Assembly (NCBI RefSeq): GCF_002160065.1
Contig: NZ_NFJW01000005.1
Span: 62,001 to 126,000, forward strand
Source: Collinsella sp. An2
GTDB lineage: Bacteria > Actinomycetota > Coriobacteriia > Coriobacteriales > Coriobacteriaceae
Direction: 5' to 3'
DNA length: 64,000 bases
The notes under the pieces: generated by a model
What the model was told of the DNA's origin: nothing
Databases searched by the model: none
The model's input: only the letters and a program-made list of their open reading frames with translations
Position numbers and translations under genes: made by a program
Shown: one piece after another, positions 13,118 through 31,559 of the stretch
Position numbering within the stretch: position 1 is the stretch's first letter
Layout of the letters: each line of letters starts with the position of its first letter

Positions 13118-13287
13118 AATTGCGCACACTTAGCGAAAGTTACGTGCGCCAAACGCGAGTTGCGTGCGGCAGACGAAAATTACGTGCGTGATTCGGTCAT
13201 TTGAGTCCCCATTTGGAGGTGACTTTGGCCGAAATCCTCTATCAACTTCTGAAGAGCGCACGCAACTGCGCCGCTCGGAACGCAATT
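13118..13287. repeat. 20-nt-period motif array with central hairpin
   Basis: An 11-nt motif recurs at exactly 20-nt steps: AATTGCGCACA (13118), AGTTACGTGCG (13138), AGTTGCGTGCG (13158), AATTACGTGCG (13178). A stem-forming segment follows (GATTCGGTCATTTGAGTCCCC... to ...GGCCGAAATC, 13190-13234), then the motif in reverse complement, again 20 nt apart: CGCACGCAACT (13257) and GGAACGCAATT (13277). A related array is at 28311-28401. It lies between the tRNA and the end of the YhcH-family gene; no gene is visible in 12985-13396. Confidence 0.85.
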
Positions 13288-21638: not shown

Positions 21639-22202
21639 GGCCGCCGCCCTCCCTCGCCCACCTATGCGGACGTGCATCGCCTTGCAACTGTTGTACAAGA
21701 CCCCCCGGACACCGATTGGCACCGGAGGGTCTACTTTTGTGAACCCCTCGTCTGACCTGGTCTTTGACCCCACACCTGCGCACTGGGACGTTTGCTGCTG
21801 CCGCCGCGGCGACATCACGACTAGCCCGCTCGCCCGCGGGGCGGAATTGCCCTCAAGTAGACGGACGGTGCGACTTACCTCTAGGACGCGCCATGATCGC
21901 GTTCGCGCGCACGCGAACGCTTACGTGGGTCCCTTTGACCGCGTCTGTCATGGACTAGGGCGCGCGCCATGCGCGCCGGCAACCACAGCACGGGGGGATG
22001 CGCAGAAAAGTATAGCAGTTCACAGGCACGATTGAGCGCCGCCCGGCATGTGATGAAATGGAAACAGACACCCCGAGCGACAGACCCCCTAGGCGCATGT
22101 CGAGCTCGTATGGGCACGGCGGCGCGCGGTGTCGCTTGCCGCCGGCGGTTGGCTGTCGGGACGTCTCATGGACGGCCCCGCCCTGTGCGGCGAGCGCTCC
22201 GG
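21639..22202. other. 564-bp intergenic region upstream of the solute-binding lipoprotein gene
   Basis: No supported gene. It holds a perfect inverted repeat GCGTTCGCG-CGCA-CGCGAACGC (21899-21920) and, near the comF end, ordinary GC-rich sequence. The lipoprotein promoter should be near 21640-21760 but I see no clear consensus. Confidence 0.5.
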
Positions 22203-28232: not shown

Positions 28233-28333
28233 AAGTTCGGGGCGTCTGCAGAAAGTTTCCGCACCGAGAGTCCAAATCACCCCCGTTTTTCGAGAATTTT
28301 TGGACTCTCAGGGCCGTAACTTCTGCGAGATGC
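28233..28333. repeat. Direct repeat copy B (about 100 bp, with internal hairpin)
   Basis: Second copy of the repeat at 26777-26877; only scattered substitutions (for example C/T near position 11, T/A in the loop, G/A after the right arm). Its right end runs directly into the 20-nt-period array at 28311-28401. Confidence 0.9.
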
Positions 28334-28401
28334 ACGTAACTCGGAAATGCCACACGCAACCAGGAACAACCGTACGCAACTTGAGAGCGGAGCACGTAAC
28401 T
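28311..28401. repeat. 20-nt-period motif array (five units)
   Basis: Units lie exactly 20 nt apart: GGGCCGTAACT (28311), TGCACGTAACT (28331), CACACGCAACC (28351), CGTACGCAACT (28371), AGCACGTAACT (28391); on the minus strand these read AGTTACGTGC-like, as at 13118-13188. The hairpin of direct repeat B follows on the minus strand, then one unit in opposite orientation (AGTTTCCGCAC, 28254). It lies just beyond the topA terminator. Confidence 0.85.
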
Positions 28402-28420: not shown

Positions 28421-28472
28421 TAAAAAAGAGCCGCGTCGGCTACGGCCAACAACCGGAAGCTGACGCGGCTCT
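28421..28472 (-). terminator. Rho-independent terminator of topA
   Basis: Minus strand: AGAGCCGCGTCAGCT, a 16-nt loop, AGCCGACGCGGCTCT (14 of 15 paired), then TTTTTA. It lies 8 bp after the topA stop codon. Confidence 0.9.
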
Positions 28473-28480
28473 ATCGCCCT

Positions 28481-31084
28481 TTACTGGGACGCCGACGTCT
28501 TTGTTGCAGCCTTCGAGCCAGACTTCGTCGACGTCTTTTTAGCGGTCGACTTTGCCGTCTTGGCAGCAGACGTTGCCGCTTTTGCCGACGACTTCGCCGA
28601 CGCGCCCTTGCGCCCACGGCCGCGCCCAGAAGCGGGCTTCTTCTCCTTACCGGGGCAGTCCATGTTCACGCAGATGCGCCACGGTCCGCGCGCGGTCTCC
28701 ACCACCACGACGGGCGCTCCGCAATGCTCGCACACCTCGCCGGTGGCCGTGAGCTTGCCGCGCGCCGGCAGCGGATACGAAACCCCGCACTCGTCGTAGT
28801 TGGTGCAGCGGATGAATCGCTTGCCGCTGCGCTCGCTCTTATGCGCCACCAGGTCGCCGTGACGACCGGCCTCCTTGCACACCGAGCACTCGCCCACCAC
28901 CAGATCGGGCTCGTAGTTCGTGGGGCATTTGGGATTCACGCACGTCTCGTAGGCCTTCTGCCTAAACGGCTGGCACTTGATCCGCGGAGCCCCGCATTCG
29001 GGACACACGGCGCCCTCGCCCTCAATCGGCGAGACCTTGACGCCGCTCGGCACGGGATAGGTGACGTCGCAATCGGGCCATCCCATGCAGCCGATGAAGC
29101 TGCCACGAGTTTTGGCCGAAGTCTTCATGACCAGGTCCTTGCCGCACTTGGGGCAGGTGCCCACCTTGGCATCGGCGGTCACCGCGTCGGCAATCGCCTC
29201 GCCCAGATCGTCCTTGTGCTCGATCAGGTCGTCGAGCATGCCGGCCAGCAACGCACGGGAGTGATCGACCACGTGGTCCTGCGTGTCCTGGCCCTCGGCA
29301 ACCTTGGTCATATCTTCGTCGAGCTCGGCCGTCATCTCGGGCGTCGTGATGCGCGGCGCAAACTCATGCAGCGCGTCTACGATGGCCATGCCGAGCTGAC
29401 TGGGCTCGATGGGGTCGTTTTTGAGGTAACGCACCTGGTAGAGACGCTCGATGATGCTTGCGCGCGTGGACTTGGTGCCCAGCCCGCGCTTCTCCATCTC
29501 CTGCACCAGACGCCCCTGGCTGTAGCGCGCCGGCGGCTCGGTCTGCTTGGCCTCGAGCTTGATATCGTGCACGTCCACCGCATCGCCCTCGGAAAGCGGA
29601 GGCAGCTGCTCGTCGCGCTTGAGGCCATACGGATACGCCTCGCGGAAGCCCGGGCTCACCAGCACATCGCCCGACGCCGTGAACGGCTCGCCCGCAACAT
29701 CGATTGCAAGCTTCGTGTTCTCAATGGTCGCAGGACCCATAAGCGTAGCCAGGAAGCGCCGCGCGATGAGCATGTAGAGCTTCTTCTGTCCGCCATCGAG
29801 CGTCTCGGGATTGCCCTGGCCCGTGGGATGAATGGGCGGGTGGTCGGTTGTCTCGGTCTTGCCGCGTGTAGGCTTCATGGGCCCCGCCAGCACCTTCTTG
29901 CACACAGGCGCCAGCGCAGGCGAGCCCGCGGCAAGCCCCTTGACGATGCCGCCCAGATCGAGCGAGCGCGGGTACACGGTGTTGTCGACGCGCGGGTACG
30001 AGATAAAGCCCGCCATATAGAGGCTCTCCGCGATGCGCATGGTGCGCGCGGGGCTGATGCCCTCGGCCGCCGCCGCGGCCTGCAGCGACGTGGTGTTGAA
30101 CGGCGTGGGCGGCTGCTGTTTGCGCGAGCGCTTGGCAACAGACGTCACCGTGCCCTTGGTGGCGCCGTCGACGTGCGCGAACGCCTGCTCAGCCGCCGTT
30201 TTGTCGGTAAAGCGAGCGGTGGCGTGACTGATCTTGAACTCGGTCTCGGGCTGTCCCGACGCCGCAGCCAGACCGCGAATCTGCCAGTAGTCCTCGGGTA
30301 CAAACGCCATGCGCTCGCGCTCGCGCTCCACGACGAGCGCCAGGGTGGGCGTCTGCACGCGACCGGCCGAGCGCACATTGCCAAAGCCGCCGAAACGCGC
30401 CAAGGTGAGGTAGCGGGTAAGCACCGCGCCCCAGATGAGGTCGATGTACTGACGGCTCTCGCCCGCGTCGGCCAGGTTCTGGTCGAGCTCCACAAGGTTG
30501 TCGAACGCCGCGGTTACCTCGCCCTTGATAAGGGCCGAGTACCGGGCGCGATAGGCCGGCACATCGGGCGCGACCTCGCGCACCATATCAAGAGCATCCG
30601 AGCCGATGAGCTCGCCCTCGCGGTCGAAGTCGGTGGCGATAATCACCGCGTCGGATTTCTTGGCCAGGTTCTTGAGCGCGCGGATGATCTCCTTCTCCGC
30701 CGGCTTCTTTACGATGGGTGCCCAGGTAAGATACGGCAGGCTCTCGACCTTCCAGCCCTTGATATTGATGCCGTTGGGCAGATACGGACGACGTTTGGAG
30801 CTGTACGGAGGCCGCGCAAGACCGTCCGGCACGTCGGCCGGCAGCACCTCGCCGTCTTCGGAAACGCTGTACCAGCCCTGTTTCTTGTCGAACAGGATCT
30901 CGTCGGGGAAATCGGGCGCCAGGATATGACCGGCAAGGCCCATGGACACCCAATCCTCACCCTTCACGGTGAATCGATAGACCGCGGTGTTGTACACCTT
31001 GTCGTTCTTTGGTTTGCCGGCGTCACTCAGCAGCTGAGCAATCTTTTGCGCGGCGATGTTTTTCTCTGCAATGACGAGCTTCAC
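28481..31084 (-). CDS. topA: Type IA DNA topoisomerase I, archaeal-type
   Basis: Relaxes negatively supercoiled DNA. 867 residues from GTG 31084 (GGAG 6 nt upstream). N-terminal MKLVIAEKNIAAQKIAQLL, MGLAGHILAPDFP, TOPRIM motif IIATDFDREGELIGSDALD, NLADAGESRQYIDLIWGA, SAGRVQTPTLALVVERERE and the active-site region FISYPRVDNTVYP. TDFDREGELIG and ESRQYIDLIWGAVLTRY are the wording of archaeal TopA, not the bacterial TDPDREGEAIA form. The C-terminus has four zinc ribbons (for example CPKCGKDLVMK, CPECGAPRIKC, CSVCKEAGRHGDL, CEHCGAPVVVV) and a Lys/Ala/Thr/Ser tail of about 45 residues. Confidence 0.93.
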   Translation of the reverse strand: MKLVIAEKNIAAQKIAQLLSDAGKPKNDKVYNTAVYRFTVKGEDWVSMGLAGHILAPDFPDEILFDKKQGWYSVSEDGEVLPADVPDGLARPPYSSKRRPYLPNGINIKGWKVESLPYLTWAPIVKKPAEKEIIRALKNLAKKSDAVIIATDFDREGELIGSDALDMVREVAPDVPAYRARYSALIKGEVTAAFDNLVELDQNLADAGESRQYIDLIWGAVLTRYLTLARFGGFGNVRSAGRVQTPTLALVVERERERMAFVPEDYWQIRGLAAASGQPETEFKISHATARFTDKTAAEQAFAHVDGATKGTVTSVAKRSRKQQPPTPFNTTSLQAAAAAEGISPARTMRIAESLYMAGFISYPRVDNTVYPRSLDLGGIVKGLAAGSPALAPVCKKVLAGPMKPTRGKTETTDHPPIHPTGQGNPETLDGGQKKLYMLIARRFLATLMGPATIENTKLAIDVAGEPFTASGDVLVSPGFREAYPYGLKRDEQLPPLSEGDAVDVHDIKLEAKQTEPPARYSQGRLVQEMEKRGLGTKSTRASIIERLYQVRYLKNDPIEPSQLGMAIVDALHEFAPRITTPEMTAELDEDMTKVAEGQDTQDHVVDHSRALLAGMLDDLIEHKDDLGEAIADAVTADAKVGTCPKCGKDLVMKTSAKTRGSFIGCMGWPDCDVTYPVPSGVKVSPIEGEGAVCPECGAPRIKCQPFRQKAYETCVNPKCPTNYEPDLVVGECSVCKEAGRHGDLVAHKSERSGKRFIRCTNYDECGVSYPLPARGKLTATGEVCEHCGAPVVVVETARGPWRICVNMDCPGKEKKPASGRGRGRKGASAKSSAKAATSAAKTAKSTAKKTSTKSGSKAATKTSASQ

Positions 31085-31559
31085 CGAAGGCTCCTTGTCT
31101 ATATGCATCCTCGGCGCAGCGACATGGCCGTGCGGCGCGCGGCGACCGCAGGCCGCAGCACGCGCCCGAGCAGCGGACGATGTCCGCGCGGGGTTTCTTT
31201 CGATACCGCACCATACCATGAAGCATGGATATACGCGAACAGGACACATTTTTTAGCAATGAACCACGTCGAGAGACATGGACGTTTGCAGCCAGCTGGC
31301 CACAGATGCAGCGGGCCGCAGGGAGTCGGCGACTGCGCGGACGGCAGAGCCGAGACCCCACGACACCCGAGCGGAACGTGGGGCCCGCGGAAGATGCAGG
31401 GCCGCGCGAGCTGCGTGAGGCGGTGCGGCGCCCCTCCACACCCAAAACCTCGACAGCACAGGCCGGCCCGCCGCTCATCCCTCGCGACGGGCCGGCCTGA
31501 AACCAGCGCATAGGTTTGTGACATCCATCTCGGCGCGCGCTTCGCTGCGCCCCGACCCG
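31085..31559. other. 475-bp intergenic region upstream of topA
   Basis: No supported gene; several antiparallel frames lack motifs. It includes the topA leader and, close to the DUF4097 stop codon, the stem-loop 31459-31499. Confidence 0.5.
31459..31499. terminator. Stem-loop after the DUF4097 gene
   Basis: CAGGCCGGCCC (31459-31469) and GGGCCGGCCTG (31489-31499) pair perfectly across a 19-nt loop. It lies about 60 bp past the DUF4097 stop codon on the minus strand. No T run follows, so intrinsic termination is only probable. Confidence 0.55.

Follow-up and report, generated by a model that had tools for sequence, protein, structure and literature searches.

Next to a gene that an earlier note named as topA, the window (a 64,000-nucleotide stretch of contig C42 of a Coriobacteriaceae genome of 2.54 Mb in 46 contigs, G000, hereafter the source genome) carries a row of short repeats at a 20-nt period, a hairpin, and a unit in the opposite direction. 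This locus, at 28254-28401, raises the question of whether such an arrangement belongs to a real family of elements and, if so, of what kind. The earlier note had described five units at exact 20-nt steps joined to a hairpin and one reverse unit, and had pointed to the same order of parts at 13118-13287. The five units were confirmed on the plus strand, with true starts one base later than had been given; the first (GGCCGTAACT) and the third (ACACGCAACC) are imperfect. Both arms of the hairpin were also confirmed, and the order of array, hairpin, and reverse unit is common to the two loci as judged from their sequence, with the mirror arm better preserved at 13118-13287. The reverse unit itself is present, but not as a single unit of the design; it is instead the remnant of a full mirror-image arm, which holds 2-7 units in better copies. 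The features of both loci are given in Table 1.

Table 1. Features of the two loci in the window and of the DNA adjoining the locus at 28254-28401.
Feature	Position	Strand	Basis or remark
Degenerate mirror-arm unit, AGTTTCCGCAC on the plus strand	28254-28264	-	Sequence and family architecture; about 2 nt off the family register
Centre, imperfect palindrome GAGAGTCCAAA (28266-28276) / TTTGGACTCTC (28299-28309)	28266-28309	.	
Five-unit array, 20-nt-phased (28312, 28332, 28352, 28372, 28392)	28312-28401	+	Consensus GCACGYAAYT
Terminator-like hairpin and T tract	28427-28472	-	Directly after the 922-aa ORF; adjoins the array yet is separate
922-aa ORF, putative topA (name from the earlier note)	28481-31249	-	ORF; 3' end points to the array
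Minus-oriented array, four units (13118, 13138, 13158, 13178)	13118-13187	-	
70-nt centre, half-sites TTCGGTCA/TGGCCGAA	13188-13257	.	
Special unit AGTTGATAGAGG within the 70-nt centre	13236-13247	-	
Mirror arm, unit 13258-13267 and worn unit 13278-13287	13258-13287	+	

When a motif matrix was trained with the two window loci left out, it recovered four-unit chains on the 20-nt grid at both of them, and no chain in 300 shuffled windows exceeded 2 units. A scan of the source genome for further copies returned 107 unit pairs at 20-nt spacing, as compared to 1 for the pattern read backwards, and these matches define at least 29 loci that share a single architecture. The claim of a real element family rather than chance is thus upheld; with unit pairs at this many loci genome-wide, the order is therefore not limited to the window, on which that claim had been made to depend.

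We denote this family as A. Its unit comprises GCACGYAAYT (10 nt) and 10 weakly constrained bases, which together give the 20-nt period, and the number of units ranges from 2 to 7. In the complete design, a row of minus-oriented units leads into a centre and then into the same row mirrored, in plus orientation. The centre is 50, 70, or 90 nt long (distance between innermost units of 51, 69, 71, or 91) and has as its core the inverted pair TCGKCCA/TGGMCGA. Centres of the 71 type carry one special unit (AGTTGATAGAGG) on one side, or on both sides in two copies. The family core corresponding to the centre at 28266-28309 is GATTCGKCCA..TGGMCGAATC, and the locus at 28254-28401 is a worn copy of family A with a divergent core.

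Family A was absent from the 66 other Coriobacteriaceae genomes screened (67 including the source), and an exact three-unit pattern detected none in GTDB species genomes. No relative of the element was found among plasmids and phages, and viral matches to the two-unit pattern were rejected as family A, as they had no further units in phase. Other families of arrays were identified among relatives. Family B (TGGTCAAT-N11-CTGGGCA, period 51-53) occupies about 14 loci in the source genome and about 16 in Enorma phocaeensis (G002). Its centre measures 48-49 nt and lacks a hairpin or conserved sequence, or is displaced by one full period or one turn of the helix; centre spans are 102-103, with outliers at 50, 92, 154-155, and 166. 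A B-like family, denoted as B' (TGGTCA-N12-TATGGGY, period 52), gave 83 genome-wide matches in G009 and 45 in G021, which are two species of another genus than Enorma. Family C (ATYYGGAC-N8-YGTT-N-YCGGGC, period 30) gave 100 genome-wide matches in G006, from a third genus. All B' and C arrays are mirrored. A de novo array scan, which covered 360-400 kb per genome in several relatives, revealed B' in G009 and C in G006 and gave no convincing array in the congener G001; matches of its sensitive version in GC-rich stretches were mostly noise. The array families are lineage-specific.

Three B' arrays occupy matching positions in G009 and G021. Their motifs are 97.9% identical over 192 columns, a value biased somewhat upward because similarity to the consensus was the basis for calling units, with motif columns counted if the unit was present in either species. 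Spacers are 70.3% identical (789 columns), as compared to 69.3% for the flanks (934 columns), and gap columns number 1 in the spacers versus 131 in the flanks (Fisher p = 1e-20 for the identity of motifs against spacers and 6e-32 for the gap counts). The high motif identity and the near absence of indels relative to the flanks therefore indicate that purifying selection acts in place on the motifs and on the distances and leaves the spacer bases free, as measured on B', family A being present in one genome only. Motifs held at orthologous sites in turn argue that the copies are useful where they stand. In several places, arrays of family B likewise have the same neighbouring genes in the two Enorma species (the source genome and E. 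phocaeensis), with flanks that align at 65-84%, and in one array aligned between the two species the motif positions are kept and the spacers have diverged. Selection that preserves motif and helical phase but leaves the intervening sequence free is known for few families of intergenic repeats in bacteria, and it is measured directly here, in the orthologous B' arrays.

Selection in place bears on the main rival explanation, in which the arrays are non-autonomous mobile elements whose rows would be transposase-binding sites at the inverted ends of a miniature element, moved by an enzyme encoded elsewhere. Several observations fit such an origin, including the lineage specificity of the families, near-identical A copies with unrelated flanks (E0/E1, 88%, in the element only; E3/E4, 91%; E10/E11, 84%), and the close proximity of some near-duplicate copies. 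Moreover, in element E8 (L044 3655-4120; G000:C1 about 246654-247120) the hairpin loop at the A centre is interrupted by a mirrored family B array of about 330 bp, and this A element is uninterrupted at the homologous site. Ends of the Tn7 or Mu type carry repeated transposase sites in inverted orientation on both sides of a short element. The arrays differ from these in their variable unit number, without a fixed terminus, and the flanks of the 29 copies share no common terminus. Neither terminal inverted repeats nor a target duplication were seen, and none was evident at the nested insertion. Furthermore, motifs and spacing of B and B' are held at orthologous sites while spacers drift, unlike what is expected of unselected dead copies, and the lack of plasmid or phage relatives also speaks against mobility as the explanation. 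We therefore consider a mobile element unlikely as the full account of the arrays. Nevertheless, the near-duplicate copies and the nested insertion of B in A indicate that the elements do multiply, and usefulness in place and mobility are compatible, such that both can be true.

The idea of near-identical copies bracketing inserted cargo at dnaX-ybaB was evaluated and rejected, given that one of the cargo genes also precedes ybaB in G002 and G009, both of which lack family A. Three A loci (L054 4706-4934, L055 4679-4860, and L058 3883-4111) share an additional 180-230 bp of similarity (71-75%) outside the arrays, which had no match in Rfam.

REPs and BIMEs occur near gene 3' ends, as the arrays do, and BIMEs bind gyrase, IHF, and Pol I. 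These repetitive extragenic palindromes are also like the arrays in being dispersed, intergenic, and mirror-symmetric (PMC2817692, PMC3733652). They are, however, built from a palindromic unit of 20-40 bp, whereas the arrays are rows in which non-palindromic motifs stand in phase and the spacers are free: neither GCACGYAAYT nor the B and C units form the short imperfect palindrome with a GTAG- or CGTC-type tag that is characteristic of REPs. A transposase search that covered Y1 transposases identified REP-associated tyrosine transposases (RAYTs) in these genomes with their own, different palindromes. RAYT loci are flanked by GGGGACGGGTACAAATG palindromes rather than by array units, and a RAYT was rejected as the mover of the arrays. 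The RAYT-like Y1 transposase (L206, L205, and L204) is single-copy in each of the three Enorma genomes, where it directly follows an apparent phosphoglycerate mutase gene; it is only 51% identical between two of them, and its own REPs flank the gene. A 39-nt tandem repeat (GGTCATTATGGGACGGGTTTGTTTTGACC) at L239 15840-15960 resembles a RAYT-type REP.

The distances across the centres are quantised. B' centre spans (80, 91, 101, 111, 143, 164, 165, 195, 205, 206, 216, and 227) share one phase of the 10.45-bp DNA helical repeat (R = 0.96), with 0 of 5,000 random sets as good, and family B spans show the same phasing (R = 0.96, p = 0.001). Phasing alone is weaker for C (p = 0.008) and A (p = 0.08), with few distinct spans. 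Spacers of family A do not pair across arms (0.364 versus 0.373 expected from permutation); at the variable C/T positions of its motif, the two arms agree no better than the base frequencies predict. In family B, pairing of spacers is slightly above expectation (0.405 versus 0.342, sd 0.027). The hairpin, which the earlier note had counted among the parts of the design, is not central to it, since the centre of the sister 52-nt family B has none and the A spacers are unpaired across arms. With spacers unpaired and the centre hairpin dispensable, the readout is therefore of duplex DNA and not of RNA.

These results weigh heavily against an RNA element, that is, a hairpin-containing transcript that would act as a terminator, attenuator, or small RNA. 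The elements do follow gene 3' ends, and the copy at 28254-28401 folds better than shuffles on the strand shown (RNA folding, z = -3.6). Yet the absence of cross-arm pairing and of matched C/T positions means that a stem-forming RNA is not the shared feature, the stable hairpin of this locus notwithstanding, and B centres have no hairpin. Compensatory changes that would mark a structured RNA are not apparent, with pairing at the permuted expectation in A and slightly above it in B. In addition, Rfam gave no match of the elements to an ordinary RNA family, the terminator on the topA side is a separate hairpin, and a role in termination found no support among the results obtained. An RNA element is thus highly improbable.

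The arrays are intergenic. Only 2 of the 48 elements for which both neighbours are known lie in divergent gaps; among background gaps, taken at 150 bp or more, the figure is 34 of 159 (p = 0.004). In tandem cases, most elements are closer to the 3' end of the upstream gene, the exact distances being rough as the gene calls came from a simple codon-use model. The neighbouring genes seen are household genes with no evident common function. Another reading is that the arrays are operators of a single transcription factor that controls a large regulon, with tens of targets; cooperative phased sites are typical of regulators. The avoidance of divergent intergenic regions, the placement mostly near the upstream gene's end, and the lack of a common function among neighbours make such a regulon improbable.

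Plasmid iterons and parC-type centromere arrays consist of direct repeats of about two helical turns that are bound cooperatively. The family resembles them in both respects, which would suit centromere-like or segregation sites, that is, iteron-type arrays to which a ParR- or ParB-like protein would bind. The arrays differ in forming dozens of chromosomal copies, in mirrored rows, away from the origin. With parB as the origin marker, clustering of the kind seen for parS or parC sites, at the origin or on one replicon, was not observed: the parB contig of the source genome (C12, 264 kb) has 1 of the 29 A arrays, and the 32 arrays of G006 are spread over both large contigs rather than grouped around parB. 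Nor does the count of ParB_N proteins track the presence of arrays. We accordingly regard segregation sites as a poor prospect. Within G006, family C clusters away from parB at C1 520-720 kb (9 in 200 kb) and C2 137-242 kb (8 in 105 kb).

The reading that we prefer, with a confidence that is about evenly balanced, is that of a dispersed chromosomal cis-element in which the arrays would be docking sites for a lineage-specific DNA-binding protein, which would bridge the two arms and thereby form a fold-back loop. The mirror symmetry and the phasing suggest this bridge. Specifically, a sequence-specific protein would read each site on duplex DNA at helically phased distances, and dimers would bind cooperatively along both rows and link mirror-image sites to each other, such that the DNA folds back at the centre into a pinned loop. 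Such loops, mostly behind gene 3' ends, may act as topological or supercoiling anchors or as insulators between transcription units. The elements also multiply occasionally within a genome. The motif would differ between lineages because the cognate protein differs. More tentatively, and with doubts that outweigh our confidence, we propose that the arrays represent an undescribed class of chromosome-folding element, in which mirrored phased rows would be zipped by a dedicated, fast-changing protein, with each Coriobacteriaceae lineage having its own protein and motif. A literature search found no papers on such arrays. The proposal is a specific, testable claim of a chromosome-architecture system in gut bacteria, and the four lineages and three motif types would allow the protein to be identified by comparison.

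CRISPR and TIGR arrays also combine short repeats with variable spacers. In the arrays described here, by contrast, the arms are oppositely oriented and the spacers evolve neutrally, drifting like flanking DNA; no effector gene was noticed among the household genes seen as neighbours.

Different array families coincide in different species at the 3' end of coaX, at a PAS-domain-like gene, and between valS and clpX (stretches L053 4192-4382 with L147/L156, L126 with L283, and L332/L343 with L266/L269). Among orthologous sites drawn at random and checked in other genera, none had an array of another family except valS-clpX, and the intergenic places shared by different families in different genera may be due to chance. 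Within the window, a raiA RNA motif (Rfam RF03072, 143 bits) is located at 21743-21998 on the minus strand. An A array of the source genome (L059 4292-4426) and a B' array of G009 (L339 3861-4212) both stand directly behind the same gene, apparently of the YigZ type, in a shared gene order.
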